From Micractinium sp. NFX-FRZ (taxonomy: Eukaryota; Chlorophyta; Trebouxiophyceae; Chlorellales; Chlorellaceae): 64,000 bases of DNA. This document shows, piece by piece, positions 1,163-63,473 of the stretch. Each line of letters starts with the position of its first letter. Within the stretch, counting starts at the first letter, position 1. A program made the translations under genes and the position numbers. The notes beneath the pieces are model-generated. The model saw only the letters and a list, made by a program, of their open reading frames with translations. It had not been told where the DNA came from and did no database searches. The stretch is taken from assembly GCA_029339195.1 (NCBI GenBank), contig JAPTJF010000020.1, positions 124,001 through 188,000 on the forward strand, in the 5' to 3' direction.

Positions 1163-4100
1163 ATGGCGGATTTGGAGGAGCGATGGACAGGCGACAGAGC
1201 AGGCGGCAAAAGTGGGAGCAGGAGCAGGAGCAGGAGTCGCAGCAGGCGCAACCGCAGCCCGCCCCGGCACGCAGAGCGGCCACGCAGCCCTGCCGAGCGG
1301 CAGCGGCAGCGGAGCCCTGACGACCGCCGCCGCCGCCGCTCCCCCAGCCACAGCAGGAGCAGGAGCGCAGGGCGGCGTGATAGAGGTGAGGATTGGGCGG
1401 GGAGGAAGGAAGTTTAATGCTTTGATGGCACCAACGTGCTGCATTAGAGTTGCCCCCTGCTGGTGTCTGCTGGTCTGCACTGCAGCACCCGCTGGGCCAC
1501 CACTGAGTGCTCTCCGCCCAGCTGCTGCTGCCTCCACTGCTGCTGCTGCAGATTCCCGCCGGGAGCGGTCCCCGCCGCGTCGGCGGGAGCGCTCCCCTCC
1601 TAGCCGGCGGGATGGCTATGGCAGCAGGCGGGGCGGCAGCCGGTCTCGCTCGCCCCCACGCCGCCGTGACCGCTCACCGCCCGGCCGGGACGGCGGATAT
1701 GCTGGCAGGCGGGGCGGCAGCCGCTCGCCGCCCGGCCGGGATGGCGGCAGCTACGGCGGCAGGCGGGGCGGCAGCCGCTCGCCGCCGCCGCCGGCGTTGC
1801 CCGTCGGGCGGGGCCCGCCGCTGCCTCCACAGCAGTTCCCAGGGGGTGGCTTCCAGCCCGGCGGCTTCCGGCAGCAGCATCACCAGCAGCAGCAGCAGCT
1901 GTCAGGTGCGGGGGTGCACGTAACACTGGGGGCAGGCAATGGTGGCAGGGGTGTGTGGCACTGCCACGTAAGCTCCCTCATGCCTGCCCAAAGATCGGTT
2001 TAGTGCCCGCTCTGGCGCAACTCCCGTCAACCCACCCCACCCCCGCCGTTACCTCTGCACATGCACCCAGAACAAGAGAACGCATCAAGAAATTCGTGGG
2101 CAGCCTCCACCACGCCCACAGCCACAGGCGCTCACCCCTACATAAGTAGCCAGCTGCCGCTGCTTTCTTCGCCTGCCACCTCTCCACACGTTTGCACACC
2201 CCTCCTGCAGTTGCGCACCCCAAGGCAAGCAGCACCCACCACGCCCGCACATCACCAGCCCTCCACCTCTGCTTTGCAGCTCCGCACTTCCACACACACT
2301 TGCAGGGGCGCGAGGGTGGGCAGCACCCGCCACACCCGTAGCACACACCCACCAGCCCGTCACATCTGCTCCCTGCCCCCTTCAACACACCCCACCCTCC
2401 CGCAGAGGCGCCCCCAGAAGTGGGCAGCATCCACCGCGCCACTGTGGTGTCTGTGCGCCCCTTTGGCGCCTTTTTGGAGCTGCCCGGCTACCGCAAGCAG
2501 GCGCTGGTGCACAACACGCAGGTGTGCGTGTGGTGTGTGTGGGTGTGCGTGCTTGACATGCTAAGAGAATTGGGTGCATGGGTGCTGGCGGGGTGCCGCA
2601 AGCAGGCGCTGGCGCGCCACATGCAGGCAGGTCTGCCCCCCTCGTGAGCCGGTCTGCATGTGGCGCGACGCCAGGCAGGAGTGTCATGCAAGCTTGCTGC
2701 TTGCGGGACACGGGGCGCTTGGTTTCCTAATCAGACCCTGCCCCCTGTGCCTCCTCCTCTCCCCCGCCAGGTGTCTGATGACATCCAGTTTGGTCGTGAT
2801 GACGAGGACGAGGACAAGGTCAAAGCTCTGGAGTTCTTCCTGCCCCGCGGGGAGAAGGTGAGCAGGCATGCACCGGCTGCATGGAGTAGTTGTGTTGGAA
2901 ATGCCACGGTTGGTGTGCTTTCGAGTGCACCATCCCAACCTGATCGCTTGTTTGTTCTTTCTTGGGTTGCACCGTGTGCCTTGGCTTTCATCGTGCTCCC
3001 CACGTCCATGCAACTAATGGCCCTGCCGGTGCGGAACACAGGAAACCGGTGCCCCTCAAACACACACTTATCAGTTGAGTGTGTGCCCAGGTGTGTGAGT
3101 GAAGACCTTGGATGTGCGGCAGCACCCAACTGTTGCACGGAAACCTACTGGAGGGGTGCTCACCGATCACCCGCCTGCAACTGATTGGGAATACTCCACA
3201 TGCAGGTGTGGGTGAAGATTCTGGAGGTGCGGCAGGAGCCGGGGGGGCAGGCCAAGCTGGCGGCCAGCATGCGGGCCGTCAGCCAGGAGGACGGGCGCGA
3301 CCTGGACCCAGACAACACCCTGGCGGCAGGTAACTGCTAAGTGCAGTACTGCTTGTTGCATTACGTCGGTTCTTTTAGCATGCGGTGGCTGGCGAGGGCT
3401 GGAGTGGTAGAACACACTGGCAGCAGGTAGGCGAAATGTTGGGTGTACACTGGGCACGCCGTTCACATGTGGGGGAGAGCCAGGAGGGTGCAGATCCAGG
3501 TGGGACTGATCATAAGGGCCACGCCACGCCACCGACACCTCTGTGAGCATGCCCTGCCTGCCTGCTCTGCAGCCGGGCGTGGCGGCCCAGGCGGCCCTGG
3601 CGGCGGCCCCGGCGGCGGCCGAGGCGGCGGGCGGGACAGTGACGAGCCACCGGAGCTCTACTCCATCCACAAAGCAGGTGCAGTATATACGTGTTGTGAA
3701 CGAAACAGGTCTGGTAGGGTCTGGGAGGTTGGCAGCTATTGTAGGGCAGATGGGCTGCCCCTCTGGGGAGAGCGTGGGGCCAGCTGCGCTCCCTGCTGTG
3801 CGCTGGCACAGCGGCGGCGGGGAGTACAGAAGGAGCAGGCCAGGGAGGGGCGGTGCGGGGAGGTGAATGGGCACAAGGCCAGCCTTGTCAGCACTGGGAG
3901 CACCCCTCTGGCTGGGCAGGCACCGCACCCAGATGTCTACTCCCTTCCTGCTCCGCTGCCGCCGCTGACCTTATCTCGACGCCCGCGCCACCCCGCCCCA
4001 GCCCCACCGACCGCTGCTCCCCTGCACTGCTTCTGATGCTGCAGCGGTGCAGCAGGTGCGCCCCTTTGGCGTGTTTGTGAAGTTGGATGGCTACCGCAAG

Positions 4101-7100
4101 TACGGCCTCGTGCACTTTTCACAGGTGGGTTTGTTCAACAAAACACATCTAACAATGCTCCGCGGTGGTAGGGGGGTTGTGCGCCCCTGTGGCGGGCTTG
4201 GGAACATGGATGGCTGTCGCAAGTGACGGCCTGGTGCACTTCTCGCAGGCGTAAGGGCAGGTGCCAGCCAGCGGGATTGGAGCAGTGGCTAAGCTGCTTG
4301 CGCGACACGCCCGCGTAGGAACAGCCTTCCAACACAACACCTGCACTTCACCCCGTGCCCCTAACTGTTTGTGTGCTGCATGTGCATGCAGATCAGCGAC
4401 CACCTCAGCTTCTCTCGTGAGGACGCCGATGATGTCAAGGTTAAAGAGATCAGCGAGATTCTGTCGGTGGGGGACCCAGGTAGGGTTCTGGGGACGGGCA
4501 GGGGTAGGGGTGCTGTGCTGCGCAGCCCGGTCAGGGACATCAGCGATGTTCTCTTTGTGGGGGACCCAGGTAGGGGTTTGGTACTCTGTGCAGGGAAAGG
4601 GGCATTGTGGTGGGCAGCACGGCGGGCCCGGGTGTGGCCACGCTGCTTTCGACCCGTTTTGCTGAGTGCCTGCAGTGCGGGCCATGGTGCTGGAGGCCCG
4701 GCCCCTCGTGTGCGCTCGTGTGCACTCGTGGTGAAGCTGATTCCATGTGCATGTATCGTGGTGTTCGTGCTGTGGCCCACTGCCTGCAGTGGGGGTCAAG
4801 ATAGTGGACCTCACGTTTCATGTTTTAGCTGTTTTGATGTCCACAAATCATGTTTATTTGTGTTGCAACCCACTGCCTGCCTGCAGTGTGGGTCAAGGTG
4901 GTGGACCTCACATTCGATGAGCGCGGCGCCAAGGCAAGTGCCCCGCCTGCCTGCCGTGCCTGCCTGCCTCCCTGCCTGGGCGCGCTGGGCTCTGCCCTGC
5001 CTGCCTGCTCAGTGCACCCCGCTGCCTGTGCATGCATCGCTGGTGCGCCCCCGCCTGCCCGCCTGCCTGCATGCCTGCCTGCTCCCCATGCCCCAACGCT
5101 AGCACCTGTACCAACCGCCTCCATACGCTTCAACTCTGCAGATTGGGTGCAGCATCAAGCATGTCAGCCAGAGCGACGGCACAGATCTGGACCCTGCAAA
5201 CACAAAGTATCGGCCGCGTGGGGATGGCGGCGGCGGCCCCCAGGTGTGCCCCTGCCTAGCCACGCTTGCCGCCACTGCTGCTGCTGCTAATGTCGGTGTG
5301 TCAGGTTGTGCTCACGTGTTTTGTCTCTGAGGCTGGTCACGCCTGTCCCCTGTGTGCATTGACCTCCCAACCCATGATGCTTTCTTTCACAGCAGCTGAG
5401 CTGCCTGCCCGCAGGTTGCTATGTTCTTCGCACCTCACAGCCGGCACCTGCCTACCTGCCACCTGCCCGCCCGCCCGCCTGCAGGCCCAGCAGCCCATCG
5501 GCGCAGCCGCAGGCACTGCACACGACGGCGCCGTTGATTGGGGGCACCTCAAGGCGGACGTGGTGCAGGTGTGCTTCCTTACCTGTGCGCTGCCACTGTG
5601 CTGTGTGCGCTGTCATTCTGCTTTGTTGCGCACACAGCAGCGTGTGATGGGTTGGGGGCACCTCAAGGCGGATGTGGTGCAGGTGCGTTCTCTCTGTGTC
5701 ATCCACACATGCTGGCCTCTCTGGGCACCGCCACCCACACAGTGCGTTCTTGCTGGCCGGGCACTTTGCACCTCTGCTGTGCTTCCTCCTCCCTGCAGGC
5801 CTGACCCTGACCACAATTCCTTCTCCACTTTGCCTCCCTCTCTTGTGCACTCCTCCACCTCTGCCCCTCCACCCCTGCCCTTCCTCTACCCCTGCAGTAC
5901 GGCGCCGGCAAGCAGCAGTACGAGATCCTGGCGGACTCGGGGGATGAGGGCCCTGGGCCCTTGGGGCGCGGCCGCCCCCTCCCCCCGCAGCGCCCCGGCC
6001 CCCCGCCCGGCCCTCCGGCTGGCGGCGGCGGCTTTGGCAGCGGCGCCAACATGGCACCCATGCCCCCAAGGTGGGTGCTGGGCCTTTCTGCTGCGGTACT
6101 ACTGCTGTGCTTGGCTTCTGCTGCTGCTGCTGCTGCCCAGGTTGCAGTCCGGTGTCCCACCAAGGCGACAGCACCAGGACACCTGAGCCTAGAGCACTAC
6201 AGTGTTACAACCGGACAGGCATTCATGTGATGCGCCCCTGCATGCCAGCTCGCCCTGCAAACCAGGGGTGCTGTGTACAGTAATAAGGAGGGCTGGGATG
6301 CTAACCCTCCCCATCATCATCATTTAGCTCCTGCCCTGCCCGCTCAGCAGCCAGCCTGGCAAGCAGCCGCCGCGCCAGCTTGCACTGCGGCGCCCCCTCT
6401 GCCGCCACCCCCTGGAGCTGCTGCGCCAGCCGCTCCTCCTTGCGCCGCTTCCTCCCCTTCTTGGAGGCAGGGTCAGCCCGCTGCTGGCCCTCCTGATGCT
6501 GCCCCTGCCGCTGCTGATCCTGCTGCTGCCCCTGCTGCTGTTCCTGCTGCTCCGCGTCTGCTGCCTCTGCGCCACCCTGCTGCACCCCCTGCTGCTGCGC
6601 TGGCGCCAGCAGCTGCCCCTGCTGCTGCCCCTGCCCCTGCCCCTGCTGCTGCGCCTCCTCCTCTCCGGTGTACAGATCGTACAGCTTGCCGGGCTGCAGG
6701 TACCAGCCAAAGACGCTGTACCTGCAGGCAGGGCAGCCAGGGCAGCCAAAAGCAGTATGGGGGCGAGGGCGGTGCACCACGGTCAGCCTAGTGTCGTGCC
6801 GTGCTGCAGCAGCACAACAAGAACACTGGGCAGTGCAATCTGCCAGGGCCCTGTGCCACATGTTGTGCTGCAGCTAGCAGCGCTTTGGCACAGCCATGCC
6901 GGTGCCTGCCCGTCCGCCTACCGCCTGCCCCACAAAACCCAGGCATCCAGTGCTGCGCCCACGGGCCCACCTGACCATGCAAGCAAGCACACACACGCCC
7001 GCACACACGCGCACGGCTTTGGGGCCGGTTTCACACACACATGCACGCACCGCGGGCGGTCCGTCGTCAGCGGTGTCACCGTGTGGTACCGCGGCACGCG

Positions 7101-9566: not shown

Positions 9567-9573
9567 AGGGCTG

Positions 9574-12500
9574 TCAACAAAACAGCTGCCTTGCAGCTGC
9601 CATCAGCAAGGGAGATGGCGTGGCTGTATCACTGCCTGCTCTGAAGCGCTGCTCTGACCTCATGCCTTGTCCCAGGCACACACAGTCATAGCACACGCTA
9701 CCGCCTTGCCCAACTGGCGCCCTGATGGTCACGCCACGGCATGTTCTGTGGTTGGATCCTGTGAGTGTTGCACTTTCCAACAATGGAACAATCAACAACC
9801 AACAGCAGAGACTCTTCAGTCGATCCTCCTCCTCCTCCCACTCGTCCTCCCACTCCTCCTCCCCCTCATCTCCGGACCAGGCGAGGTCCTCCTCGTTCTC
9901 CTCCCCATCGTCCGTCATGAATTGCCCCTCGTCATCGGTGTCGCTCGCATAATCTGCCGCGCTGTCCACCAGCAGCTCCAGCTGGGGCGCCCCCCTCGCC
10001 AGGCGCAGCAGGTTTGCGGGCCACATGTGCCCGATGCGCCTCAGGTCCAGCCACGCCAGCTTGGGCAGCGCCAGCAGGGCGTCCACCGCCGCGCCGTCGA
10101 CGTCCAGGCCCTCGTTGCGGCGCAGGGAGAGGGCGCGCAGCTCGGGGGCAGACGCCGGGGTGAGGAAGGTGGGCAGGGCGGTTAGGCTGTTGCTGGCCAG
10201 GCAGAGCTCCTCCAGGGCTGCGGGCAGCGGGAGAAGTTGAGGGGTACATGTGAGTTAGGGGGAGGTGTACACATGTGTGCAGTTGAGGAGCACGTGGTGC
10301 TCCCCAACTGTGTGGGGGCGAGAATAGTGTGGTGGGGAGGGAGGCAAATAGCCGGGCACATCTCCTGCATGGTGGGGCGTGCGGTTGGGAACGTGGCGTG
10401 TGGCGGGGGCATGCGGGAAGGAGGAGGACGAGCGAAAACAGCCTTCCAATGGAAAGGCAGACAGCTGAGGGCAGTGTCAGCCGGCAGGCAGCACTGAGCC
10501 TCAGGGGCAGGCAGGCAGCACAAGGTGAGGAACAGGCAGGCATGCAAGTGGACAGCACAGGGCCAGAGGCATGCAAGTGGACAACCAATCAATCAATCAA
10601 TCAGTCAGCCAATTGGACAACACAGGGTGGTAGTGTGAGCAGCGGGGAAAAGCAGCGCACGAGCGCCGCCCCACCGGCCCTTAGGCGGGCTCCTACCTGC
10701 TCTACTGGCCGCCCTCTCCCTCCATCCCCACTCTCCTTCCAACCATGCTGCCTCCCTCCGCCACACTCCGCGCAGCCATGCTGTCTCCCTCACTCACTCA
10801 CTCTGGAACAGCGGAGCATCGGGTGGCAGTAGGTCGGGCAGCCCATCGTCCTGGAGGCTCAGCTTCCTGGTGGGGGGTGCACGGTGAGGGGTGCATGGTG
10901 AGGGGTCCAAGGTGTGGGGTGCATGGTGGGATGTGCACGGTGTGGGGTGCATGGTGTGGGGTGCATGGTGGGGGAGGGCACGGAACGCAGGGCGGCACGG
11001 CCATGCATGAGGGCATGGCGTGCACGGAAGCAGTGGATGCCTGGTGGGGCAGTGCAAGAAATTGATGCATGCCTGGGATGGGGAGCATGGCATGCGCTGA
11101 TGGCCGGGGGCTGGATTGCGCAAGCGAGGCGGCTGCACACGACTCCCTCCTCCTCCACCACGCCACGCCTTGTGCCTCGCCGTGCCCACCGCCCGCCCGC
11201 TCTCACCTCAGCCCAGTGTAGTTTGCCAGGCAGGGCGGCAGCACGCCGTCGCGCGCGGCGGTCCTGTCCAAACGCATGAATGCGATGCGCAGGGCGGTGA
11301 GGTGGGGCGCCTGGGAGAGCAGCCCCTCCAGTGCTGCCCCGTCTGCCCCCTGCCCCACGCCGCAGTGCGTGTGCAGCACCAGCGTGCGCAGGCCCGCCAG
11401 GCGGGAGCAGCCCTGTAGAGCCTCTGCTGTGAAGCTCTCCCCAAACATGTGGAGCTCCAGGCGGCGCAGCGGCGCGCCAGCTGGCAGCAGCCAGTCCAGC
11501 TGGCGGGCCAGCGAGGCGGGCGGGGGGTTGAAGTGGGAGAAGGACAGGGAGAGGGTGTGGGAGTTGGCGCCGCTGCTGCCAGGGTCAAAGTCGACGTCGG
11601 TACCGCTCTGTACCTTGAGGTACGCTGGTTCCAGCTCAGCACTGCAGTTGAACGTGGCACGCTTCACCTGGCCACCTGGCACCTGCCGTGAAGAGGGAGA
11701 GGGGGCAGGGGAGCGGGTGCGGGATCAGGCACTTGAGCAGAGCAGGTGGCACGTCCGGGATTCTCCCATACCAGGCTTCGGTGCTCCCAGCAGCGGCGGC
11801 ATCACAGCAGGCAGGCAGGGAGCATGGCCTGCAGCTTGGCTAGTGGGCTGCAGGCACAATGCCACACCTCATACATCACAACTTTAAAAGAGCGCACACC
11901 TCTGTGGCGCTGCACTCAGCGGCTGTACGCCAAACTCCGCTGCTGTACAGCATGGCAAAGCATGAAGTGCACTCTGGGCCAACCCCAGCCCTGGTGCATT
12001 TGTTGCCTCAAGCCCCCGTCGATCCCGGATGCTCCCGCTCGCAACGTTTCAGACTCACCAGGACCGGGCCGCGGCCGTTTTCAAAGAGGAAGGCGGACAG
12101 GCACGGCAGCTGGCAGGGGGGCGGCCCCAGCAGCGGGGCGCCCACGGGTTGCCCTGGGTCAGCCGCAGCTCCTCTAGAGTGGTGAGCTGGGTCAAGACCT
12201 GCTCAGCAGGTGGGGAGGAAGGGTAAACCTCTTTGAAGGATCAAACACAAGAGGTGCACGGTACGTTGTGCGGCCACAGCTCCCCCACGGTGGTCAGCTG
12301 CGTCAGGATCCGTGCAGGAGGAAGGGGGGAAGGGAAGGATGGTTAGGGTGCTGTGACGCAGGGGCGCAGGTTGAGGCGCACTAGCTGTGCGGGTTGAGGC
12401 GCGGCTAGGTGAGCTGGGTCCGTGGCCTGCACAGGTATCGCTTGAACAGGTTAGAGGGCTTAGCCCCAGCACGTTAACGTGCAGACCACCTGTAAGAGTC

Positions 12501-49480: not shown

Positions 49481-50016
49481 TGTGGCAGGTGGCAGCGCAG
49501 CTACAGCGGGTACCCTGTACGGCATGGGTGCAAATGTAACAGCAGGCCCCGAGAAGCCCTGAGCCATGTGTATCCATGTAAACTCATGAGGGCTTGGTAC
49601 TCCAAGGTGGGGACATCCCCCAGCTGGCGCCCCCTGCCAAGGTATCTCCCTCCTTGCCACCGCCAGCATGCAGCGGCAGCTTCTGTCCTTGGCCGACCTG
49701 CACTGTGCGCGCCTGCCCTCGCCTCGCCCAGCCGGCTCTGCGAAACCTATTTCATTGAAGCGGGCCTTCAATGCTTCTCGACGCACCTTGACACGCCACG
49801 GAAGCGGGTCCCGCCTCCCAGGTCTCCGCAGTCAGGCCTCGACCTACAACCTCCCACACTTCATTCGGCATTCGCAGGAGAGTTTAAGCCGCGCGCCGCG
49901 GTGTGCTCGCTCGCGGCGCGCGCCACACCGCACCCTTTGGCAGCGCCGCCACCGCCCCCGCTGGCGCCGCCGGTGGCCGGGCGAGCGCACGCCGCCCGCT
50001 CCCTACCACAGGCAGC
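49481..50016. other. Region between NUMT and phosphoesterase gene
   Basis: This is a 536-bp presumed promoter and 5' UTR. TGTAA motifs at 49535-49539 and 49575-49579 could serve the upstream NHL gene but are more than 600 bp from its stop. A plus-strand frame from 49668 is open but overlaps the phosphoesterase start in another frame. Confidence 0.4.
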
Positions 50017-53000
50017 ATGCCTGCATCCAGGACCTTTCCTCCACGGCTACTAGTGCCGCTGCTAGTATCTCCCTGGTTGCTCCTTTTGGCCCTTGGCCCC
50101 GAGACGGCGTGCGCTGGCGCAGCGCCCCGCCCGCCCCCGCCCCGCCTGCGCTTCCGACCCGACGGCACCTTCTCCATCGCTCAGTTCACAGACCTACACT
50201 ACTCGGGCAACCCAGAGGTTGACACGTTAAGCGACCAGGCGAGCATGGCAGAGTGATTGCATTTGTGTTGTGCGCCGGTCCCGGGGGCGCACATGGCATC
50301 CACCCCGCGCCGGAAGCTGCGGCAGGCGGGACGGCAGCGGTGCCGCCAGTTGTGGCCAGCAGCAGGCATCCCAGCGCCGGCGCCCTGCCGCGCCTTGTCG
50401 ACCCTGCCCCCACTGAGCGCAGCAAGTCCTGCATGATTGTCTGTTCCCTCCCCGTCTGCTCTGCTCACGACCTGCACGCTGCGCTGCCCCGCCGCACGCT
50501 GCAGGTCCAGCGCGCCGTTCTGCAGGCAGAGCAGCCCGACTTGGTTGTGTTCAGCGGCGACCAGGTGTCTGGGTTTGCTTGGAAGCACAACAGGAGTGCA
50601 GGTTGGTACGAAGACAGCTGGCGACAGCTCATCGGGCCCGTGCATGCAGCGGGCGTGCCATATGCCAGCATTCTTGGTGAGTGCAGGGGGGGGGGAGGAC
50701 CTCTGTGTGTGTGTATGCTTGGCAAGGAGACGAGGGGGCAGCGGGAAGGGGCTATCAATGGCTGCTGTGCAGCAACCATGGGGAGACATCCCGGCAGAAT
50801 GAACCGGCTTCTGGTACTCCTTGCCTGGTGTCATTCCATGCCCACTGTTGGTGCTGGCCGGCGTGATGCAGGCGAGCTGGATATGACTGCGCCCCTGCTC
50901 AAGTTTCACCCAGACGGTGCCACCCTTCTAATTACAACCTATCTACTGATTACTACCTATCTACTTGCTTGGTGTGCAGGCAACCATGACGGGGAAGCGG
51001 ACCTCAGCCGGCAGCAAATTGTGGCCCTGGACATTGCCACAGGTGGCAACCTGTCGCTGACTCAGATGGGGCCCAGGTGCGGGGGTGTCGCGCCCTGCTG
51101 CGTGCTGTGCTGGGCTGGGCTGTGCAGTGCTGGGCCCAGGTGCGGGTTGGCGCTGCACCCTGCTGTGTGATGTGCTGTGCTGTGCTGTGCTGTGCTGTGC
51201 TGCGCTGGGCACCCCCTGCTCTGATGCTGTGCCCGGCTGCGCTGGGCTGGGCTGGGCCCAAGTGCAAGGGCGCCGCGCCCTGCTGTGGTGCTGCGCTGCG
51301 CTGCGCTGCGCCTGGTGGTGGGCTGTGCACCCTTTCCCCCTGCAATGGTGCCACACCGACCCTTGTCTGACGCGTTGTTGTGCTGCGCCGCAATGTGCCA
51401 TTGCTGCCGAGCTGCACCTGCAGGCCGCAGCCGCAGCGCCCCTGCCCTGCCCACTTCCTGCCCCTGCCGCCCCTGCCCCCGCCCCCGCCCACCTGCCTCC
51501 CGCCCCGCCCTTCCCTCTCGTCCCTCCCGCCCCTGCCCACCTCACGCCTGCCCCCCGCCCCGCCCCGCCCCGCAGCTACCTGCCCGGGCACAGCAACTAT
51601 TGGCTTGACATCCACAGCGCGGATGGCAAGGCAGTGGCGGCCCGTATCTGGCTGCTGGACTCTGGGAACCGTGGGTGTGACGGCAGCCTGGACGGCTGGT
51701 GAGTGGGGCTGGCGGGTGGTCCTTTGGTCAGCCTAGCCGGGCGTTGGGCGGTCCAGGCGGCCGGGAGAGTGCCTGGGGGGGCGTCATGCTCTGGGACGGG
51801 CGTCCCATGCGCACCGCTGATCCCTGGCTGCGCTGCGCCACGCTGCGCTGCGTCCCCTCGTGCCCGCCGCAGGTGCCTTTGGCTTATGGTAGCTGACTGG
51901 TGCCTTTGGCTTAATTTCCTGTTGGCTTCCTCAACCCCACGCCCTCGGACTGTAATCTTCTTCTGTCTTCATGGCGCAGGGGCTGCGTGCCAGCAAGCGT
52001 GGTCGCGTGGGTGGAGGAGCGGGCGGCGGCGCTGCCGCGGGTGCCCTCCCTGGCTTTTGTGCACATCCCGCTTCCCCAGGTGAGGAAGATAAGTTGAGTG
52101 AGGAAGGGGTGAGGCCCGGGGAGAAGCTGTAACCCGTGGGTCTGGGCAGGGCTGCAAGCATGGCACGGTCTTGGGAATGAAACAGGCACACCACACACCA
52201 CCTTTGAATGCTGCCTGCAGTTCATGCTCATGGAGCTGCGGAATGAAACAGGAAATACATGTGCCAATTGTTAATATCATCCTTTCTGCAGTTCATGGAG
52301 CTGTGGAACGAGCAGGCCACGGTGGGCAAGAAGGGCAAGCGGGTGGCCTGCCCCCTGGTGGACACCGGAGCCTTTGAGGCCTTCAAGTGAGAAGCCGGTG
52401 ACCGCTCGCCCGTCATGGGAGGGGCAGGGGCCAGGGTTGCCAGAGCCAGGTGCCCTGTGCGATCAAGCGCCTGTGCGCCTGTGCCGGGTGCTGGCATGCG
52501 CCTCCCCATGCAGAGCGCTGCGCTGTGCTTGCCTGTGCCTCCTGCCCTCCCTAGTCCCTGCCTGCCTGCCGCCGGCCCCACATGCACTCTGCATTTTTAG
52601 AGCCCCGCCTGCAGCTTCTGCTTGCTGCCATGCCGCCCCGTGTCCTGCGTACTGCCCCACCACATGCTGCCCTTGCCAGAGAGCCAAAGCACACTGCTGT
52701 CGAACCCATGATGTGCAGGCGCTCGGGCGGGCGCCCTGCCTGTGTGCAGCGGGCATGGCCACCCCGCCGCTCCCTGCCCTTACGTCTGCTCCAGATGCTG
52801 AATCATTAAGCACCGTGCCCCGCAGGCGGGCGGGCACCCTGCCTGTGTACAGCAGGCACGGCCGCCCCGCCGCCCCTGACCTCTACGGCCAACGCTGTCA
52901 CAATACACCTCCTGCTGTGCAGGCGGGCGGGCATCCAGGCTGTTTACAGCGGGCACGACCACCCCAGCGACTTCATGGGAGAACTCCGGGGCGTGCGGCT

Positions 53001-54074
53001 GGCATACGGGTGAGTGTGTGGCTGGGTGTTGAGGGTTGGGGCTATAGATATAGCTGTAGATAGATCAGGATAGATAGATGGATAGGATAGGTAAGGATCT
53101 GGGATGAGGTGGGGCTGTTGCAGTGGGGAGCAGTGCATGCCGCTGCTGCCGCTGCCGCTGCTGCGCCGCTGCTGCCAAGCCAGGTCTGGCAGTGCGGCAC
53201 CAATGGGAGTTGAGGAAACCTAGACCCATTACCTGCTGTCCCTCACGCCCTTCCCTCGTCCTCCCCCGCCCAACCTCACCCCCTGCCCCCCCGCCCCGGC
53301 AGGCGCAAGACGGGGCACGGCGCCCGCGGCCCTCGGGGCGCCAAGGGCGCCCGCATCATCCACCTCCGCACGGGGCAGAGCGCTGCGCTGAGCACGACCT
53401 GGATCAGGACGGGCGATGGGGAGCGGGAGGAGCAGATGGGCGGGCCCCCGACGCTGCCAGGGGCGAAGGAGCGGCAGGAGCGGTGCTCTGCAGGCAAGAC
53501 AGCCGCACGAGGGGCGGCTGCGTTGAGGAGCCAAGACGTGCACAGCGGCAGCATGCCTGGGGGCTGGCTTTGCAGGGCAGCGCTGCGGGGCTTCTTGCAG
53601 AGAGCCTGGGCAGTTGTGTGCCTCGCGCACCATGTTGGGGCGCCTGCCGCCTGCTCCACAAACCCCCACTCCTGCCCGCCTGCCTGCCTGCCTGCCTGAA
53701 TCTGCGCCCCACCCCCCACCCCACGCCTGCCTGCTGTGCCGGCCTGCTGTCCTGGATCTAAACAAAGCCCCACCCCTGCCTCCCTGCCTGGCTCGCTTGC
53801 AGATCCCTGGCTGCTGCAGCGCCTGCGCAGCCGCTCCTACGTTCTCTTCTGGGTGACCCAGCTTGCCGTGGTTCTGGCCACGATTGCGGTCTCGGCGGGC
53901 ACGACAGTTGCGGTGATGCGCTGGCGCCAGCGGCGCGGCAGCAGGCGGCTGCCCAAGACCGGCAAGGGCGGTGTGCTGGCAGGAAGAGGAGATGAAGAGG
54001 CACTGCTGAAGGTGTCCACCGAGCTGCCCACTGAATTCAGGCGAGACGCGACTAGCTACACACACGCACATTGA
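50017..54074 (+). CDS. Calcineurin-like phosphoesterase (purple acid phosphatase type), membrane anchored
   Basis: Nine exons: 50017-50238, 50505-50676, 50980-51076, 51576-51698, 51980-52079, 52292-52386, 52923-53009, 53303-53493 and 53803-54074 (1359 nt, 452 aa). A signal peptide (LLVPLLVSPWLLLLALG) precedes the metallophosphoesterase motifs in order: FTDLHY, VVFSGDQV, GNHDGEAD, AFVHIPLPQ and YSGHDHPSDF, which together supply the two-metal site. The closest remembered relatives are plant PAP28/29 and fungal Dcr2-type phosphatases. The C-terminal exon adds a transmembrane helix (VTQLAVVLATIAVSAGTTVAV) and a basic cytosolic tail, so it is a type I membrane protein with an extracytosolic catalytic domain. 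Two introns need GC donors (50239, CAG|GCGAGC; 53494, CAG|GCAAGA); without them the frame stops or loses the membrane segment. Confidence 0.85.
51077..51275 (+). repeat. Ghosts of phosphoesterase exon 3 end and TGTGC run
   Basis: CTGGGCCCAGGTGCGGG (about 51128) and CTGGGCCCAAGTGCAAGGGC (about 51251) repeat the exon 3 junction ATGGGGCCCAGGTGCGGGGG (51066-51085), each followed by related CGCCCTGCTG sequence. A TGTGC pentamer run lies between them. Confidence 0.75.
52208..52256 (+). repeat. Ghost of phosphoesterase exon 6 start
   Basis: GCCTGCAGTTCATGCTCATGGAGCTGCGGAATGAAACAGG copies TTCTGCAGTTCATGGAGCTGTGGAACGAGCAGG (52285-52317), acceptor included. It lies just upstream in the intron. Confidence 0.88.
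52711..52885 (+). repeat. Two ghosts of phosphoesterase exon 7 start
   Basis: TGTGCAGGCGCTCGGGCGGGCGCCCTGCCTGTGTGCAGCGGGCATGGCCACCCC (52712-) and CCGCAGGCGGGCGGGCACCCTGCCTGTGTACAGCAGGCACGGCCGCCCC (52820-) copy TGTGCAGGCGGGCGGGCATCCAGGCTGTTTACAGCGGGCACGACCACCCC (52916-52965). Both keep a CAG acceptor. In both the GHDH active-site codons have decayed. Confidence 0.9.
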
Positions 54075-54989
54075 TGGGCATGCAATGGCATGACTAGCAT
54101 GCCAGGCCTGGCGGTGGCCGCGTGCTCAAAGGCCCTTTGCCCGCCTCTGGCGGCGGTACGTCCAGCCCTGCACAGTGGATGACCGTGTACATTTAAAATC
54201 TGCTTGTAAGTGCATCAATAAATCACAGCAGGGCAGCCTGTGGCTACTACTTAAGGGAGGCAGTGGGGGCACCAGTTTGGGGGGTGCACGTGCCGGAACA
54301 GGGCGGGGTGGATGGGGGAGCGGAGAGTGGCCACGTGACACGAGCGGCATGGGAGAGGAGCGTGGATGAGATGGGGATTACAGCGGGAAGGGATGCGGCA
54401 ACGAGCGGTGGAGAGGGAGTCCGTTAGCACGTCCATGATGGGATGTGGAGTGATGCCACCGACCGCCGCGGCAGGCGCGGAGGGGCGGTCCTGCAGAGGC
54501 CGCACCCTCTGGTTGCCCACCCCCTCGGCAGCCCGTTTCAGCCCCTCTATATTGAATTTCCATACTTTGACACGTTGACAGCCATACTTACAGGAGATGA
54601 CATGCTCGCAGAAGGTGGCAGCCTGGTGGCACCTGCCGTCGCGGCGGCCTTGTGGCCTGCCTGCCTGCGTGTGAAGCGCCGCCGCCCGGCCGGCGGCGGC
54701 ACCCCGCCGCGCCGCTGCTGCCCCACCGGCATAGCACTGGCTTCAGCGCTCTTGCATGTATTGATGTCTTCATTGTTCCCTTGTGCACAGATTTACAAGA
54801 GGGGCACGGTTCAGACACTCGTTGACAGTCCTCGGCCTCAGTACCCTACGAGCGCGCCCGCACGCTCCACCGTGCAAAACCATGTGCCCCTAGTTCCTTT
54901 TCTGAGACAGAGTTTGCATATTAAAAGCGCCGACAAGGCCCCATCGCGCATGTCACGGCTCCAGGAGAGGGCTTGAGAAAGTGTTCGAC
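54075..54989. other. Intergenic region, phosphoesterase to NHL/Cys-rich gene
   Basis: This 915-bp interval contains the phosphoesterase 3' UTR and the promoter of the next gene. Open frames here lack recognisable domains or splice logic. No RNA gene or mobile element was seen. Confidence 0.5.
54205..54209 (+). terminator. TGTAA motif after the phosphoesterase gene
   Basis: TGTAA lies 131 bp after the stop at 54074. It is a candidate poly(A) signal. Confidence 0.5.
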
Positions 54990-57900
54990 ATGCTGGGCGC
55001 AACCCACGCGGCCACGATCATTGTGGCGGCCTCAATTCTGCTGCTACAGCTCCCAATTTGCACAGGTGCGCCGCAGACCCCCGCAGGTCGGCGTGCGGAA
55101 AGGTGCGGGGCCATCCTGGTTGTCCCATTCCTCGCCAACCCGCAGCCCGAACCCGCCACAGAGCGTCGGAGCGCAGTCAGTAGCCGTCTGGACGGTCGGC
55201 AGGCCGGCAACCCTTGTGCACGTGCCGCACCAACCGAGTGGGTGGCCGGCGCCGCCCCGGCGCCCGCTGAGGGGGTGGCGCCAGACTCTAGTTGGTGTCT
55301 GTACACATTTGCATCCACCTCACCAGCTCGGGGAGGCCCGTGGTGCTGCCGCTTGATGTTGAACTGCAGGATCGAGCGAAGATGGCGACTTTGGCCGCCG
55401 GAGCAGCCGCAAGCTGCAGGCTGCCCTCGGGTACAACGTGAGGCGGTGGCATGGGGTGGCCCGGCAGCGGGCGGGGCGGGTGCTGTGCGGCAGGCTGCGC
55501 TGGCTGACGCTGGCTGCGAGTGGCAGCGCTGGCCCCACCTCGTGTCATTCCCCGCCTTCCACCCCGCCCCACCCACCCTACCCCACGCCGCCGACCGCGC
55601 TCCTGTCCCTCCACTCCGCTCCCCTCGCCCGCCGCCCCACACAACGTCTCCACCAGAACTCGGCAAAGGGCAGAGAGAGCAGCATCCTGGACCTCATCCC
55701 TCTCATCACATCCTCCCTCATATTGTTTACATCACAATCACACTGACCCCCACCCGCATCCCCTCCCTCCCTGCGCCACCTGCGCTCCCCCCCCCCCTGC
55801 ACAGTTTGAGGGCTACTGGCTGCAGCAGAACCTGACGGAGCAGCAGGTGGAGGGCGGGCAGAATGCGGCGGTGGCCGTCGCCACGGCGCCCGGGGGCCGG
55901 GTCTACGAAGCCCTCGGCTTCATCTCCTCCGGCATTGTCAAGGCGTTTGATGCGCGGGGGCTGCGGGCGGCGCCCAGCTGGGGCATGCTGGGAGGTGGGG
56001 CCAGCCAGATGGACGGCGGGGCGCAAGATTTGGAGGTGGACGCCGCCGGCAATGTGTTCCTCCTCGACAGCAAGTGAGTGAACTTGGCTGGGGTTGCCGT
56101 GGAGTGGCACTGGAATGGGTGTGCAGGTGTGCGGGTCAACGCGCGCTGGGTGCAGCCGTAGCGCTGGCGCTGGGAGTGTGTTCCTCCCCAGAGAAAACAA
56201 AAAGTGAGTGAGCTGGCTGGAGGCGATGTTGGAGTTGCTGTAGAGTGGTGCGGGAGGCGGGCGCAGGTGGGCGGGCGGGGAGGGCCACGTGTATGGCTCA
56301 GGCGGGCTGCCGAAGCGCACTATGGGCGCCGTAGCGCTGGCGCCGGCGCCGCGCCCTCACGCTGCCGCGCGCCGTGCCCGCGTGCCCTTCCCACCCGCCA
56401 TCCCACCCGCCCCTCCCTCCTCGCTTTCACTCATGTTCCCGATCCCACCATGTTGTGTCATGTTATGTCATGTTGTGTCCCCCTCCACTCCGCTCCCCTT
56501 CACACCCATGCAGGAGCGTCAAGAAGTGCACCCCCACTGGCGCCCTGCTGCTGCGCATTGATGTGCCAGGGCCTGTGCTGAGTGACGAGGGAGACTACAA
56601 GCCTCCCTACATCACCTCTGGCCTGGCGGTCGACCCCAGTGACGGCAGCATCGTTGTGGGCGTGTTCTCCGAGTATGGGTACGGCACACAAGGACAGCTG
56701 TTCAAGTTCAGGTGGGTGGTGGGCAGCTGCCCGGCAGCTGGGCACCCGGCTGGCGTGCTGTATGGGGGTTTGGCACTGATGGACAGCTGTGCACATTCTG
56801 CGTGGGTGGCCCAGCTGCCCGGCATGTGTGCTGTACGCTTGGCAGTGCGGCACGCGCGAGCCAGCAGTTCGAACAGCGCACGACACAGGGAGGTGTTTGC
56901 ACGCTTACCACACCCGGTGGCGGCTTGTTCTTGAGTCGCGCACGCCCCACCTTGATCTGTCTTCCATTCCTGTCCTACACAAGTGCAGCCGTGGCGGCGC
57001 GCTGAGCTGGCGTGTGGGCTTGAATGGCACGGGGCGGCCCTACGAGGAGTATGGGGCCGGCAAGGTGGCCATCGATGCCTCTGGATGCATCTATGTTCTA
57101 GATAAGGACGGCAGCGGGATACTCAAGTGAGTGTACCTGCCATGTAGCTGCCGCGTAGCTGCTGCCGCCGCCTCCGCTGTCGCTGTGCATAGGCAGCAGT
57201 GGGTGACGACTGACACCAGCGGCACGCTTGATCAAGTGCTGCTGCTGCTGCCACATGGCAGGTGCCGCCGCTGCTGCTGCGCAAAGGCAGGTAGCACCGG
57301 GCAGGGGCGGCATCGGCATGCCAAAGCGGGCATGTCGTGCCTGCGGGCAGCTGATGGAAACACTTCCCATCACACCTCGCGCCTACCCCTGGCCCTGCTG
57401 CGCCGTCTGCACCAAGCCAGCCACAGCAAGGCTATTTGCCACCTGCTCAAGCAACGATGGAGTCTCACGGCATGCATTCATCCCACTGCATTCCCTGCCC
57501 CTGCCCCTGCCCCTGCCCCCGGCCCCACTCAGGATGAGCCCGTCTGGGACCCTGCAGCGCCGGTTGAGCCAAGTGGGAAAAATCGGCGGCCTGACATCCA
57601 TCGCCGTGCACTCCGCCACGGGCCGCATCTTTGCCACGCACACGGCCCGGGCGGAGGTGCAGGTGTTCAGCACTGCGGGCTCGTACCTGGGAGTGGTGAG
57701 CGGGGAGGGCAATGCATGGGGAGGGCAATGCATGGGAACAGGATGGAAAGAGGGGCAGAGGGTGGGGAGTGCGGGCAAAGGGTGGGAGGCTGTGGGAGTT
57801 GTTGACACCTCGGGGTACTGCCTGGGAGTGGTGAGCAGGGGGAAGGGGGTTGGGGAGGGGTGAGCAGGGGGGGAAGGAGTGGAGGGGTGGTGAGCAGGTC

Positions 57901-59222
57901 GGGGACGGGGTACGCAACTGGTGGCCGACACATGCTGGCGCTTTGCTGGGCTGCGCTGGGCTGGCTAGGAGCGAAGCCGCCCCCCCCTGCCGCTTGCGCC
58001 GCCCGTCGGTTGCAGCCCACCCGCCCTGCCTCCTGCCATCCTCAGAAACGGGCTTTGCCTCTCAAAGGCGTTCCACCCTGCCCTCTGCCTGCCTTTCTGC
58101 CTTGCCTGCGAAACCTGCCCGGAAACCACGCGCTGGTTTGCCCGCCCACTCCCACCCCCGCGCCCACCCGCCGTGCAGCTGGGCACCGCCGGCAGTGGCG
58201 CCGGCCCGCGGTATGGCAATCTCGTGATGCCCAACTCCATTGCAGTCGAGCAATCTACGGGTGAGGGGCGGGAGAGGAGCAGGCACCGTGCAGCCAAAGC
58301 GAGCAGCCAGGCAGGCGCAGGCCCAGCCGCCTCAAGCAGCACCGGCGGCATCTGCACTGTGGGGCAGCAGCACATGGGGTGGCAGGGCAGCAGCACGCGA
58401 GGTGGCACGCACCTGCCGGGACGCCACCCTCTGGTGTGCTGCCCAGCGCCTCCTTCCGCTCCCCTTGGCCCACTCGCTCCGCAGGCTGGTCATGCTCTTG
58501 CAGCTGTCACTTTACATGAACCTGTCACATCCTTGCAGGCACACTGTATGTGGGAGATGCCGCCACGTTCCTCATCCTACGGTACAAGAACGGGTGCGTG
58601 CGTGCGCGCATGGGTGACGCGCGCAGAGGCAGGGCTGGCTGGAGCCCAACAAGAGCGGCCTGCCACGTCGGCACTCAGTGGCGGATGGGGTTGAAAGGCC
58701 GACTGCATGGGCAATTGCCTGATGACAGCGATTGACCCCAATTAAACGGCAGGAGCGGTCGCCGTTGAGCGGGTGGTGCAGAGCAGGCGGCGAGAGAGGA
58801 GCACTGTCGTGCATGCCCCACACCGGCCAGGCGCCCGCTGCACCCCGCCGCAGAGCTGCCCTGAAGGCATGGCCTGACCAAATGCGCATATGCGCTCCCC
58901 TCCCCGGTTCACTAACCGCAAACCCCCTGGTGCGCTCCCCTCCCCTGTTCACCGACCATGTGCAGGCCTGTGGGACCCTGCACCGCCTTGGACCCCTTCT
59001 GTAGGACCTGCCTGCACCCCACCGCCTGCGCGCAGTGCATCAGCCCAGCATACTCCATTGGGGACGACGGCAAGGTGGGGCCAGCAATGCTCGCAGCAAA
59101 AGTTTGCAGCAACGCGCGCAGCCTGCCTGTCTGCAGGGGAGGGTAGGATGCATGCCACGTCAGCACAACCCTGTGCGACTCGCAGGCATCAACACTCGCA
59201 GCGCTGCTCTGCATCAGGAGCA

Positions 59223-59255
<33 letters not shown>

Positions 59256-62200
59256 ACCGGGCTCCTGCTGTTGACGCCTTAACAGGCGCGGCATGCATCT
59301 TGATGGCTACCCCCCAAAATCCCTTGCCGTGCTCGCCGAGCTGCCCCCTCTTGCTCATGTTCGTGTGCGCCCTGCCAACCACCCTCATGCCACCCCGCAG
59401 TGCCGCGCGGGCACGTGCCACGACGTCGTCGACGACTGCGCAACCTGCGCCTCCCTCACAGCATGCAAGACGTGCCTGCCAGGCTTCACGCTCTCCGCCT
59501 TTGGGAAGGTGTGTTGAACCCTCCGTGTGTGTGTCTGCTTGTTTGTGGGAGTCTGTCTGTCGTGGGTGGATGGCAGTACCCCATGCTGGGGGGATCGCGG
59601 CCTTGCGGGCTGCCGCACCTGCTTTTGCCACAGCGCTGGCGCTCCATCCTCGAGCTCAATCCAGCCCTGCTTTGCCCTCCCTGCCTGCACTCCTCCCCCC
59701 CTTCCCCTTGCAGTGCGTGTCGGACGACTGCCAGGACCCCAAGTGCAAGACCTGCGCCACCCCCACCACGTGCGAGGAGTGCTGGGACCCTGCGTTTGCG
59801 CCGGGCGCCACCGGCAAGTGCGAGCCCGAGATCTGGTCCAGGTGGGCCAAGTGCAACAGTGTAGTGTAGTACACCATGTATAGTGCAGTACAGTATCGTG
59901 CAACAGTGTAGTGTACTACACCCATGGACTATCATTCGTGTGGGCGTGTGTGTCGTATGCGCAGGAGCAGGGGGGCGGGGAATGCCCCTGTGCGCAGGGA
60001 CCCCAGCACGGGTCGCCCTTGCCTCTGCTGTCTGCCCCCATCCCTTCATATGAGCGTCCACTCCTGCCTCTGCGATTGATCGTTTAGTTTTTTCTCATTC
60101 AGTATGTAACCACCTGCATCCTGCTGTCGGTGCAGGTGCCGGCAGTTCGACCCCAGCTGCCGCTACTGCTCCTCCGCCGTGCAATGCACCCTGTGCCTGA
60201 GCGACGACTATGTGGTGGCGGTGGATGGCAAGGTGCGTTTCATGACCATTCACGACTGCCTTTCGTGACTATCTTGATACTGGCATCTGGTAGGGGACAG
60301 CCCTGCAAGGTGGCATGTGCCTGGCTGCGAGCTACGTGGCGGCGGTGGATGGCAAGTTGCGGGCTGTGGTCATGCCACCTTAACAAGAGTCACATTTAAC
60401 GCGCCATGATGTATTTTCCTCCTTCGCAAGCATGTGGCGCGTAATTGAGATCAGCATGTGTCCGATGGGATCTACAACGTCCCCACGTGTCTGCTGCCTT
60501 CCCAACTGACGCCCGCCGAAGCTGTGAAGCACCCTCTGCTTTCTTCTGCACCGCCTCTCCCACCTTCTTATGCAGCACAACCCCTCCCCTTTGTTCTTTC
60601 TTCCTTTTGCACTGCAGTGCCAGCTGGACCCCACCAAAGCCTGCCGGGCCGCCGACCCGCAGTGTGCGGTGTGCGCCAGCGCCACGCGCTGCCAGCAGTG
60701 CAAGGGCGCCGGTTGGGTGGTGGGCACCAACGGCAGGTGCCGCCCCCGGCAGTGCACCGACACTGACCCCTTCTGCGCGGCCTGTCTCTCTCCCACCCTG
60801 TGCGGCCAGTGCAAGAGCGACGCGTACACTGTCAACGAGGGGGGGAAGGTGGGCACAGGGAGTGTGTTTCTGTGTACACATGCTGCCATTTCGTTCCGCC
60901 CCTCCTCCAAAATCCACCCACACTCGGCTAAGCACCACCCACCCACCCACCGGCCCCACACGAACCCCCCTAACACCACCCACGCCACGCACCACCACCC
61001 TTGCGTGCAGTGCGAGGACGCCGGCTGCAAGCAGGCCGACCCCCAGTGCCGGTCATGCCGGAGCGCCACAACATGCGCAGCGTGCAACCCAGGCTTCGTC
61101 GTGGTCAATGGCAAGGTAATGCGCTGCACACACTTCAAAGGCACAAAATCTGAAAGGGCAATAGGTATCATGCTGCAACAACCTTGAGCTACCAGCCAGT
61201 TTGTCAGGGCAGGGCTGGGATTAGGGTGGCTGTGTGGAGGCTTCGTTTGGGCAGATGGAAGGGCGTGGTGCCTGCCTGCACAGTGGCTGCCTGACTGAGG
61301 TATGCCACGGAGGGTGCAAGGGCGTGCTGGATCTGGTGCCGCCGCACTACTGGCATCGCCGATCCACGTGCCGCACATTCTGACACAAGCGGCGCTGCCC
61401 CCAATGTGCCTTCACTGCTGCTGCCACTGCTGTTGCCTCCACCCCTGCAGTGCCAACTGAAGGAGGCAAACGTCGACACGCGCTGCGTGCGCAGGATACC
61501 AGCCTGCAAGTCGTGCAAAAGCCCCACCCGCTGCGCGGTGTGTAAGGCTCGCTACGCGCTCACCGGCGCTGGAACGGTGGGTGGTGGTACAGAGGTGCAG
61601 GTACAGGTGGCGGCAGGGCGCTGCCAGGGGCTGGTGCGAGCTGCGCTGCGGGGTTCCGTGCCGTGGCACTGCTGCTATGCATGCTGTGGTCGTGCCCTCG
61701 CTGTGCAGCAGCACAGCGCGCAACTCCATGCCGCTGGCGTGGTGGGCTGGCCACAGCAGCCACGCGGGCAGGCCTCGCACGGCAAGCCCCTGCACTGCAG
61801 CGCTGCGACGTGGCAACCCCCGGCAGCCAACCTGCTCCCCCTCCCCGCCAACCTCCCTCACGATCTGCCCTGCTGTGCCTAGGCCTGCTCTGCCTGCTCT
61901 GCCTGCTCTGCACCCCTCCTGGTCCCCTGGGCAAAAGAGCCGCTGCATGGTTCGGGTGCTAGATGCCCTCATGACTCACTTGCCTCCTCGTGTTGATGTG
62001 TGTGCAGTGCCGCCTGGCAGCGTGCCTCGAGAGGGACCCCTTCTGCTCCGTGTGCGCCTCGGCGACTGCCTGCAAGACGTGCGTGGCCGGGTACGGCGTC
62101 AACAGCGGCACGCGCAAGGTGAGCGTGCTGTGCAGGGCACAACATGCGTGCAGCGAAGTTACACCTGAGCTATATGCAGGTGTGCTGCAAGGCTTCTGAG

Positions 62201-63473
62201 GCACCTGAAGCGTGCGGTCAGCAAGCCGCTCGCCTGCCGCCGCCAGCCTGCCAGTGCGGCACTGCCTGCAGAGCCACACATTGTGGAAGGCATAGCAGCT
62301 GGGGGGCGCCCAGTGGCGGGGGGGGTGCCTGTTGCAGCCGGCCCACAAGGCTGGGCATGAGTGCAAAAACGCGGCCATATGAGCGCTCCTGCTGCCTCCC
62401 ACTGGCAGCCCCTCTGCGCGCCCGCTCGCGCCCGCCCACCGCCCCCTGCCCCGCAGTGCACACGCCTTGGTGCCTGTGTTGGCAACAACGACCCCTTCTG
62501 CCTGAGATGTGATGCCCGGAAGCCACAGGTGAGCAGCGGGGACCATCCAGGGTGTGTTGTGAGCAGCTGTGGGGAGCTAGGCTGACCACTCGCCTCGCCC
62601 GGCAGGCAGACCCTTATGGGTGGCAGCGCTGCTGGGCCCTGCTGTCCCTCTATCGGCAGGCGCTGCTGGGTCGCACTGTCCCGCAATCGGACAGGCACCA
62701 GTGACTGCTGGGTCGTGCCACAAGCCTGCAGCCTCCAGGTGGCAGTTAGAAGGGCAGCGCCTGGAAGTCCTATGTGGCAGGGTGCCTTCCCCATGCACGC
62801 ACTCTCACGACCGTGCCGCCCCACCCCGCGCACCTGGCCGCATTTCGCTGGAGGGTGCGCCGCCTTTCTCCATGCCCACAACCCAGCCCAGCGGTTGCTT
62901 GCACGCCGGTGCAGCTCCACCAATGGTGCCGTCTCTTCCCGCATGCTCACAGCACCACCCTCCCTCCGCCTCACACCCCTGCTGCAGGTCTGCCTGATGT
63001 GCCGTTGGTTCTACGGCCTCAGAGGCAACAAGGTGGGTGGCTTTATGTGCAAGTGGAAGCAGGCAGGAGGGTCCTGAGCCGTCCCCACAGCTCATGGTTC
63101 GGTGGAGTGCGGGCTAAGCTAGCACTGCGGGCAGCAGGGGGGCGGTGGATGCACCACGCAGGGTCCGGTGGATGGCGGCGGATGTCGCTGCTGGGTGCTG
63201 GGCGGCAGGTACGTGCCATGCCTGCCTGCGCGCTGCCTGGGTGGCTAGGGTGGCCTGGGCAGTCAGGTGCGTGCATGTGCGCCTCCCCGCAGGTGCAAAC
63301 TTGTGTCCACGACTGGGCATCGGCGCTCCTGGATGCACCGTGCAGGGTGACCCGCTGCCCACGCTCAACTTGCCTGCCATCTGTGAACGTGATATCCGTG
63401 CGCTCATAATTTATTAAGTTTGTGTTCCCCCGTCCATGGCCTGCAGTGCGTGTTCTGGGGCTATCGGCGGTAA
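54990..63473 (+). CDS. Secreted NHL-repeat / Cys-rich array fusion protein
   Basis: Nineteen exons: 54990-55065, 55370-55437, 55805-56073, 56514-56711, 56989-57126, 57533-57695, 58179-58260, 58539-58593, 58966-59074, 59401-59508, 59714-59841, 60136-60232, 60618-60848, 61011-61115, 61451-61576, 62008-62118, 62457-62528, 62988-63032 and 63447-63473 (2208 nt, 735 aa). The signal peptide is MLGATHAATIIVAASILLLQL. The first half is an NHL-type propeller (DLEVDAAGNVFLLDSK, GLAVDPSDGSIVVGVFSEYG, KVAIDASGCIYVLDKDG, SIAVHSATGRIFATHTARA). The second half is an array of eight-Cys-style units such as CTALDPFCRTCLHPTACAQC, CHDVVDDCATCASLTACKTC and CEDAGCKQADPQCRSC. Most Cys-rich units occupy one phase-0 exon beginning with TGC and ending GK. 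The end VCLMCRWFYGLRGNK-CVFWGYRR is short of a membrane anchor. It is a probable extracellular binding protein, and its function is unknown. Confidence 0.8.
56150..56260 (+). repeat. Ghost of NHL/Cys-rich gene exon 3 end
   Basis: GTGTGTTCCTCCCCAGAGAAAACAAAAAGTGAGTGAGCTGGCTGG plus GTTGGAGTTGCTGTAGAGTGG copy the exon 3 end, donor and intron start (56053-56112: AATGTGTTCCTCCTCGACAGCAAGTGAGTGAACTTGGCTGG, GTTGCCGTGGAGTGG). Confidence 0.85.
57795..57850 (+). repeat. Ghost of NHL/Cys-rich gene exon 6 end
   Basis: CTCGGGGTACTGCCTGGGAGTGGTGAGCAGGGGG copies GGGCTCGTACCTGGGAGTGGTGAGCGGGG (57678-57706), including a full GT donor. Confidence 0.85.
59214..59258. repeat. CAG trinucleotide tract
   Basis: AGGAGCAGGAGCAGCAGCAG continues as about nine CAG units, in an intron. 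Confidence 0.9.
60298..60375 (+). repeat. Ghost of NHL/Cys-rich gene exon 12 end
   Basis: TGTGCCTGGCTGCGAGCTACGTGGCGGCGGTGGATGGCAAGTTGCG copies TGTGCCTGAGCGACGACTATGTGGTGGCGGTGGATGGCAAGGTGCG (60192-60238). The GGT donor has become GTT. Confidence 0.9.

Follow-up and report, generated by a model that had tools for sequence, protein, structure and literature searches.

Introns in a 64,000-nucleotide stretch of the genome of the green alga Micractinium sp. NFX-FRZ (C20:124001-188000, hereafter the window) repeatedly contain copies, in various states of decay, of the edge of the exon that adjoins them. These copies, referred to here as ghosts, are best read as what remains of short tandem duplications that occurred repeatedly, mostly with units of 90-135 bp, and fell across the exon-intron border of introns already in place, an interpretation to which we assign a probability of roughly 70%. 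The ghosts are real and far above chance expectation. They lie in direct orientation at a characteristic distance from their originals, and many of them include the splice junction itself.

The survey covered 304 kb, made up of the window, C1:1-200000 and C60:50001-90000, out of a genome of 66.07 Mb in 838 contigs (∼65% GC). Gene models were obtained with a hidden-Markov gene finder that was self-trained on these 304 kb and converged on 58 genes with 648 exons and 590 introns, 56 of the models bearing introns; the window contributes 13 models and 119 introns. The splice consensus from the self-trained models is CAG/GTGAG at the donor and TGCAG/G at the acceptor (slash at the border), and predicted introns have a median length of 262 bp with a 5th percentile of 91 bp. 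The CYP97C gene model encodes 589 residues; its alignment to a relative of 576 residues (P0001) shows gaps of one residue only, apart from 13 extra residues that arise because a ghost was called as exon. In the S1-domain model, too, an insertion (15 residues) stems from a ghost, and this model has a second error around the exon at 4676-4717. Some of the other gene models are wrong or fused.

Ghosts were sought with a gapped detector, which aligns up to 150 bp of each exon edge to the adjoining intron at a score of at least 18, and with an ungapped, complexity-filtered detector for lags of 75-145 bp; lenient banded alignments over-extended and served only for viewing pairs. The gapped detector finds a match on the donor side in 39/590 introns and on the acceptor side in 50/590, against 14/2950 and 20/2950, respectively, with introns of other genes, and 3/590 and 8/590 with the reverse complement of the own intron. 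The best match of the ungapped detector is an exon-intron pair in 79/590 introns (38 on the donor and 41 on the acceptor side); in 26/590 it is internal to the intron, and in 11/590 it is an exon-exon pair. Three rounds of swapping introns between genes leave 1, 2 and 0 exon-intron pairs in the 590, and reversal of the 3′ half of each intron reduces the acceptor-side pairs to 3 while the donor-side pairs stay (39). The copies are in direct orientation, direct matches far exceeding inverted ones. When both detectors are united, 112 of the 590 introns (∼19%) carry a direct-orientation copy, spread over 33 of the 56 intron-bearing models. Copies are unevenly distributed among these models (chi-square 101.8, 55 degrees of freedom, P = 1.3e-4), with 9 of 17 introns affected in CYP97C; the unevenness may stem in part from poor gene models.

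In the window, ungapped self-matches scoring at least 18 number 47, compared with none in either of two windows that were shuffled locally, and gapped self-matches scoring at least 30 number 58 in direct and 0 in inverted orientation, many of the 58 belonging to a minisatellite at 23122-23883. An initial annotation of this DNA had reported at least 25 intronic copies of the nearest exon edge, on donor and acceptor sides and sometimes in series, as the product of a recurrent local duplication at exon-intron junctions that goes beyond microsatellite growth. The present survey agrees, since 25 of the 119 window introns carry a copy, direct matches abound where inverted ones are absent, and self-alignment of introns to their flanking exons across the 304 kb gives values far above those for swapped and reverse-complemented controls. 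Its count of nine or more genes is not exactly matched: seven of the 13 window models are affected, and the number hinges on how fused models are split.

The distance from copy to original is narrowly distributed, with offsets of 90-130 bp in 53 of 89 cases, below 90 bp in 7 of 89, and a tail beyond 200 bp. The lower edge of this distribution is not a detection limit, because simulated junction-crossing units of 40-90 bp are recovered in 41-71% of cases. A count of shared 9-mers by lag in exon-intron pairs shows the same hump at 90-130 bp (58, 37, 29 and 11 per 10-bp bin), where inverted 9-mers number 3-4. Among six alignments picked for good coverage, several clearly show head-to-tail units, some in three copies, in which the similarity continues through the splice junction. 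The spacing of ∼110 bp differs from that of micro- or minisatellite growth, in which a short unit recurs many times; three copies in series occur in some introns. Of 79 units, 58 have an exonic part of 20-50 bp and 3 have one above 60 bp, a class that should hold ∼31% if placement were uniform; gapped extension of 60 junction-reaching matches raises the class above 60 bp to 11. Long exonic parts are thus scarce, yet present.

The decay of the ghosts is blind to the reading frame. Mismatch rates between exon and ghost at codon positions 1, 2 and 3 are 0.158, 0.187 and 0.181, and 84 of 93 gaps in the alignments are not multiples of three. Of 29 donor copies, 15 retain the ghost GT, and of 31 acceptor copies 16 retain the ghost AG, fewer than the ∼68% predicted by the mean mismatch rate. 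Functional upkeep of the ghost splice sites is ruled out by this loss of GT and AG together with the frame-blind decay, and the copies behave as neutral relics rather than maintained splice sites. Mutually exclusive exons, which keep frame and splice sites, likewise do not fit these counts. The lack of extra exon-ghost divergence at third positions also makes synonymous sites look nearly static while introns change fast.

Introns that carry a copy are longer than the rest, by about one unit: the median is 368 bp for those with a copy scoring at least 20 (n = 65) and 249 bp for the others. In the length class of 300-900 bp a copy is carried by 47 of 235 introns, compared with 18 of 350 in the class of 40-300 bp (five introns above 900 bp were left out); longer introns offer more room for chance matches, of which the expected number is small. 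Existing introns appear to grow by one unit per event and not to be created anew.

In the sequence of events that we favour, a duplication spanning the border would yield two copies of the splice site. Lineages that went on using the outer, original site would leave the protein unchanged, and the inner copy would become intron filler and decay neutrally. Each such event would add one unit to the intron, and repeated events would place copies in series. The duplications themselves are probably of a break- or nick-repair type, as when a staggered break is filled in and the ends are then joined, and the excess of 90-135 bp units at junctions might have its origin in repair events of limited size or in a threshold of splicing tolerance near the minimum intron size.

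Comparison of homologous proteins for two genes suggests that the outer splice site has been kept in use. The CYP97C gene (28246-35883) has matches in Micractinium sp. CCAP 211/92 (88%), M. conductrix (86%) and Chlorella sorokiniana (81%), and the best match of the S1-domain gene is in M. tetrahymenae (73%). The 15 residues encoded by the S1-domain ghost called as exon (5638-5682) are absent from five homologous proteins, and those from the CYP97C ghost called as exon (31838-31876) are absent from the homologues P0001, P0002, P0003 and P0005. The C. sorokiniana CYP97C protein (P0004) has a 33-residue insertion (alignment columns 304-336), with ETTEELIAKCKA tandemly repeated, at the exon start that matches the ghost site. 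Thirty-three residues correspond to 99 bp, probably divided into ∼39 exonic and ∼60 intronic bp, a similar geometry. The repeat in P0004 is identical at the protein level, whereas the CYP97C ghost is 84% identical to its exon and 217 bp away, so that the two events are probably independent; in this one case, read from protein, the same CYP97C exon has probably undergone a separate 99-bp duplication in C. sorokiniana. The 33-residue insertion is a ghost annotated in error or else a piece of exon that was newly duplicated. As for the S1-domain segment at 5638-5682, which is 97% identical over 34 bp and whose 45 bp are a multiple of three, it may represent an in-frame alternative exon in the making. 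Dating of the events through alleles or paralogues was dropped, as the CYP97C region (28200-36000) matches only itself at length, besides 22 matches of 36-91 bp.

Several observations weigh against our interpretation. The gene models are sequence-based predictions, and the comparison with relatives was made at the protein level. The intronic half of the unit is recovered at a median of 0.24 of its expected length, and at 0.8 or more in only 8 of 50 cases, with no clear dependence on the identity of the exonic part. This shortfall could be explained by an indel turnover specific to introns, or it may mean that it is mainly the exon edge, rather than a whole unit, that is copied. On the exon side, hardly any extra divergence is seen at third codon positions, and this is unexpected if the events are old. 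Finally, as a point against a strong junction focus, 14 of the 26 intron-internal matches lie near a junction, a proportion that fits uniform placement (∼56% in simulations).

This last result also favours the closest competing explanation, that short tandem duplication is generic and occurs anywhere, being seen at exon edges since exons are the conserved yardstick, with selection purging events inside exons and those with a long exonic part. It differs from our own reading only in denying a preference for junctions, and the confidences placed in the two overlap; we take it seriously while leaning against it. Intron-internal duplications are indeed common (110 matches, compared with 116 exon-intron matches) and are under-detected, because intronic halves decay fast and hide internal events. 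The same fast decay weakens the strong junction focus implied by the short exonic parts, and we therefore rely on a milder contrast. Here the expectation is the spectrum of intron-internal duplications placed uniformly, its range running from equal decay to doubled decay in introns, and the reference is small (23 internal duplications at 90-135 bp). Against it, 72 junction-crossing units of 90-135 bp are observed where 23-39 are expected (1.9-3.1 times), whereas at 30-90 bp the count falls short of expectation (18 against 28-45) and at 135-180 bp it is 13 against 13-23. The 90-135 bp class is over-represented at junctions, which generic duplication does not predict, and for the scarcity of long exonic parts it needs selection as an extra assumption. 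An apparent scarcity of ∼100-bp duplications in intergenic DNA (41 kb) was not upheld with a uniform detector, the contrast with introns not being significant (P = 0.23).

A more specific form of our reading may be proposed, although we think it rather unlikely to hold as a whole. The Chlorellaceae might possess a junction-focused process that duplicates units of ∼90-135 bp comprising the splice site with 20-50 bp on its exonic and 50-90 bp on its intronic side; introns would lengthen mainly in this way, in quantal steps of one unit. Only units at least as long as a minimal spliceable intron would be tolerated, the ∼90-bp lower edge being close to the 5th-percentile intron of 91 bp, and the ghost CAG/GT would perhaps act transiently as a recursive splice point.

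The initial annotation saw in the copies a fit to the tandem-duplication model of intron gain (the Rogers model), in which introns arise from duplicated exon pieces that contain AGGT. Tandem duplication is evidently active in the surveyed genome, and for other organisms one in vivo demonstration and comparative cases are described in the portions consulted of two reports (PMC3443670, PMC4974935). An intron gained in this way should show donor and acceptor contexts that match at an offset equal to the intron length. At a score of at least 16 such a register is present in 1/590 introns, compared with 1/3439 mismatched control pairs, and in the sole intron concerned (index 456) the upstream exon measures 3 bp and follows a pyrimidine-rich stretch, a combination read as a misprediction. 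At a score of at least 10 there is a slight excess (23/590 against 81/3439; Fisher P = 0.035), which leaves room for a few old intron gains. The copies, moreover, sit within long introns, and AGGT is not clearly enriched: AG precedes the donor in 53% of copy-bearing and 49% of other introns, and GT begins the next exon in 18% and 15% (percentages only, with no significance test). Recent intron gain is rejected on the register test, and we consider this origin of the copies very improbable. The duplications do not seem to target AGGT as such; of the earlier suggestion that the process is centred on AG/GT, the part that survives is the excess of 90-135 bp units crossing the junction, with their mostly short exonic parts.

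Chance similarity or low complexity in a genome of 65% GC, with its many simple repeats and with control rates at which ∼7 of 590 introns would reach the gapped threshold fortuitously, is ruled out for the class as a whole by the swapped, reverse-complement, reversed and shuffled controls and the narrow offset distribution, although single near-threshold matches may be chance. False local duplications in a draft assembly of 838 contigs, with one 100-base N gap in the window, are hardly credible as the source, since the copies show 3-30% mismatches and frameshifting gaps where assembly errors would be near-identical.

The closest precedent we found for a border-crossing duplication is the potato RdRp gene, in which, as summarised in the part of the report consulted, a tandem duplication across an intron-exon boundary created a new intron (PMC4974935). 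That is a single case of a new intron, whereas in the alga existing introns seem to grow, in ∼19% of introns and with a preferred unit length. The AGGT model of intron gain shares with our system a local tandem duplication that provides extra splice-site copies, but its register is not clearly present here. In mammalian cells, fill-in of induced staggered breaks by Pol alpha-primase/CST followed by end joining is reported to produce small direct duplications (PMC8355091, in part). These are small, head-to-tail and directly oriented like the ghosts, but the sections consulted describe no preference for splice junctions, and such a mechanism in the alga is an inference. Tandem exon duplication (PMC9013439, from the part consulted) is likewise local, although there exons are retained for alternative splicing, whereas the copies in the alga are partial exons that decay. 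Introners, as outlined in the consulted portion of PMC9860276, also affect many introns of one genome; they are, however, dispersed related elements, while the ghosts resemble their own exon and other-gene controls are near zero. Cross-gene intron matches at E ≤ 1e-5 involve 22/590 introns, and 1/590 over half the intron length; by their rarity, introner-like families are ruled out within the surveyed 304 kb of the 66 Mb. In the open-access literature, titles and abstract openings among the matches listed describe no such copies in green algae, although differently worded reports could escape. Intron lengthening is poorly dated in most genomes. The conserved exon edge here serves as a built-in scale by which single lengthening events can be sized, and roughly dated, without a second genome, and an intron-dense alga of this kind would allow direct testing of the tolerance to duplicated splice sites, and hence of splice-site choice.

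The 25 copy-bearing introns of the window comprise six in the S1-domain gene, one in the F-box/2OG-oxygenase gene, two in the Cys-rich gene, nine in CYP97C, two in the OPA3-like gene, one in model 43319-47954 and four in model 49586-63473. The last of these holds Pfam matches to a phosphoesterase and to NHL, together with a Cys-rich region, and probably fuses several of the genes distinguished in the initial annotation. Scores of the gapped matches are close to the threshold (18-19) in the Cys-rich, OPA3-like and 43319-47954 models. Individual copies are listed below, with the original first.

2476-2521 to 2581-2626, plus strand: S1-domain, donor-side copy of an exon end in intron 2522-2770; offset 105, 80% identity over 46 bp.
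3206-3240 to 3093-3127, plus strand: S1-domain, acceptor-side copy of an exon start; offset 113, 80% identity.
4056-4124 to 4179-4248, plus strand: S1-domain, donor-side copy of an exon part; offset 124, 84% identity over ∼70 bp.
4439-4479 to 4529-4569, plus strand: S1-domain, donor-side copy of an exon part, head-to-tail; offset 90, aligned length of 92 bp close to the period.
5538-5571 to 5652-5685, plus strand: S1-domain, the copy called as exon (5638-5682); offset 114, 97% identity.
12162-12197 to 12273-12308, minus strand: F-box/2OG-oxygenase, acceptor-side copy of an exon start; offset 111, 78% identity.
12625-12692 to 12525-12591, minus strand: F-box/2OG-oxygenase, donor-side copy of an exon part; offset 100, 88% identity.
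19765-19793 to 19671-19703, plus strand: Cys-rich, acceptor-side copy of an exon start; offset 94, score 19, near threshold.
28858-28891 to 28742-28775, minus strand: CYP97C, donor-side copy of an exon end; offset 116, 85% identity, ghost GT kept.
30188-30218 to 30301-30331, minus strand: CYP97C, acceptor-side copies of an exon start in series, with another one unit further on; offset 113.
30804-30843 to 30561-30600, minus strand: CYP97C, donor-side copy of an exon part about two units away; offset 243, 88% identity.
31268-31290 to 31351-31373, minus strand: CYP97C, acceptor-side copy of an exon start; offset 83, 96% identity over 23 bp.
31628-31665 to 31845-31882, minus strand: CYP97C, copy of an exon edge called as exon (31838-31876); offset 217, 84% identity.
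32521-32564 to 32614-32657, minus strand: CYP97C, acceptor-side copy of an exon start, a head-to-tail unit; offset 93.
33434-33496 to 33330-33389, minus strand: CYP97C, donor-side copy of an exon part; offset 104, 80% identity.
33544-33569 to 33601-33626, minus strand: CYP97C, acceptor-side copy of an exon start, among the few short units; offset 57, 96% identity.
34312-34382 to 34201-34270, minus strand: CYP97C, donor-side copy of an exon part; offset 111, 79% identity.
37276-37321 to 37147-37194, plus strand: OPA3-like, acceptor-side copy of an exon start; offset 129, score 18, near threshold.
52923-52965 to 52826-52868, plus strand: model 49586-63473, acceptor-side copies of an exon start in series, repeated near 52724; offset 97, 84% identity.
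60176-60232 to 60300-60356, plus strand: Cys-rich part of model 49586-63473, donor-side copy of an exon end; offset 124, 82% identity.

Intron 30219-30803 exemplifies copies that come from both sides and stand in series. Neither the 4 introns of model 26273-28042 nor the 8 of model 39870-42803 yielded a copy in the gene-model survey, and none was seen there in the region 38390-39527, taken as the EMC5 gene of the initial annotation, for which no Pfam family was named and blastn matches lie at 39040-39527. The minisatellite at 23122-23883 consists of many copies of a 47-bp unit inside an intron of model 21391-24875 (minus strand) and is interrupted by a run of 100 Ns at 23629-23728, probably an assembly gap. 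The donor of intron index 233 (C1, plus strand) resembles that of a GC-AG intron (CCGCAG/GCAAGT), and the boundary set by the gene finder may be 6 bp off.

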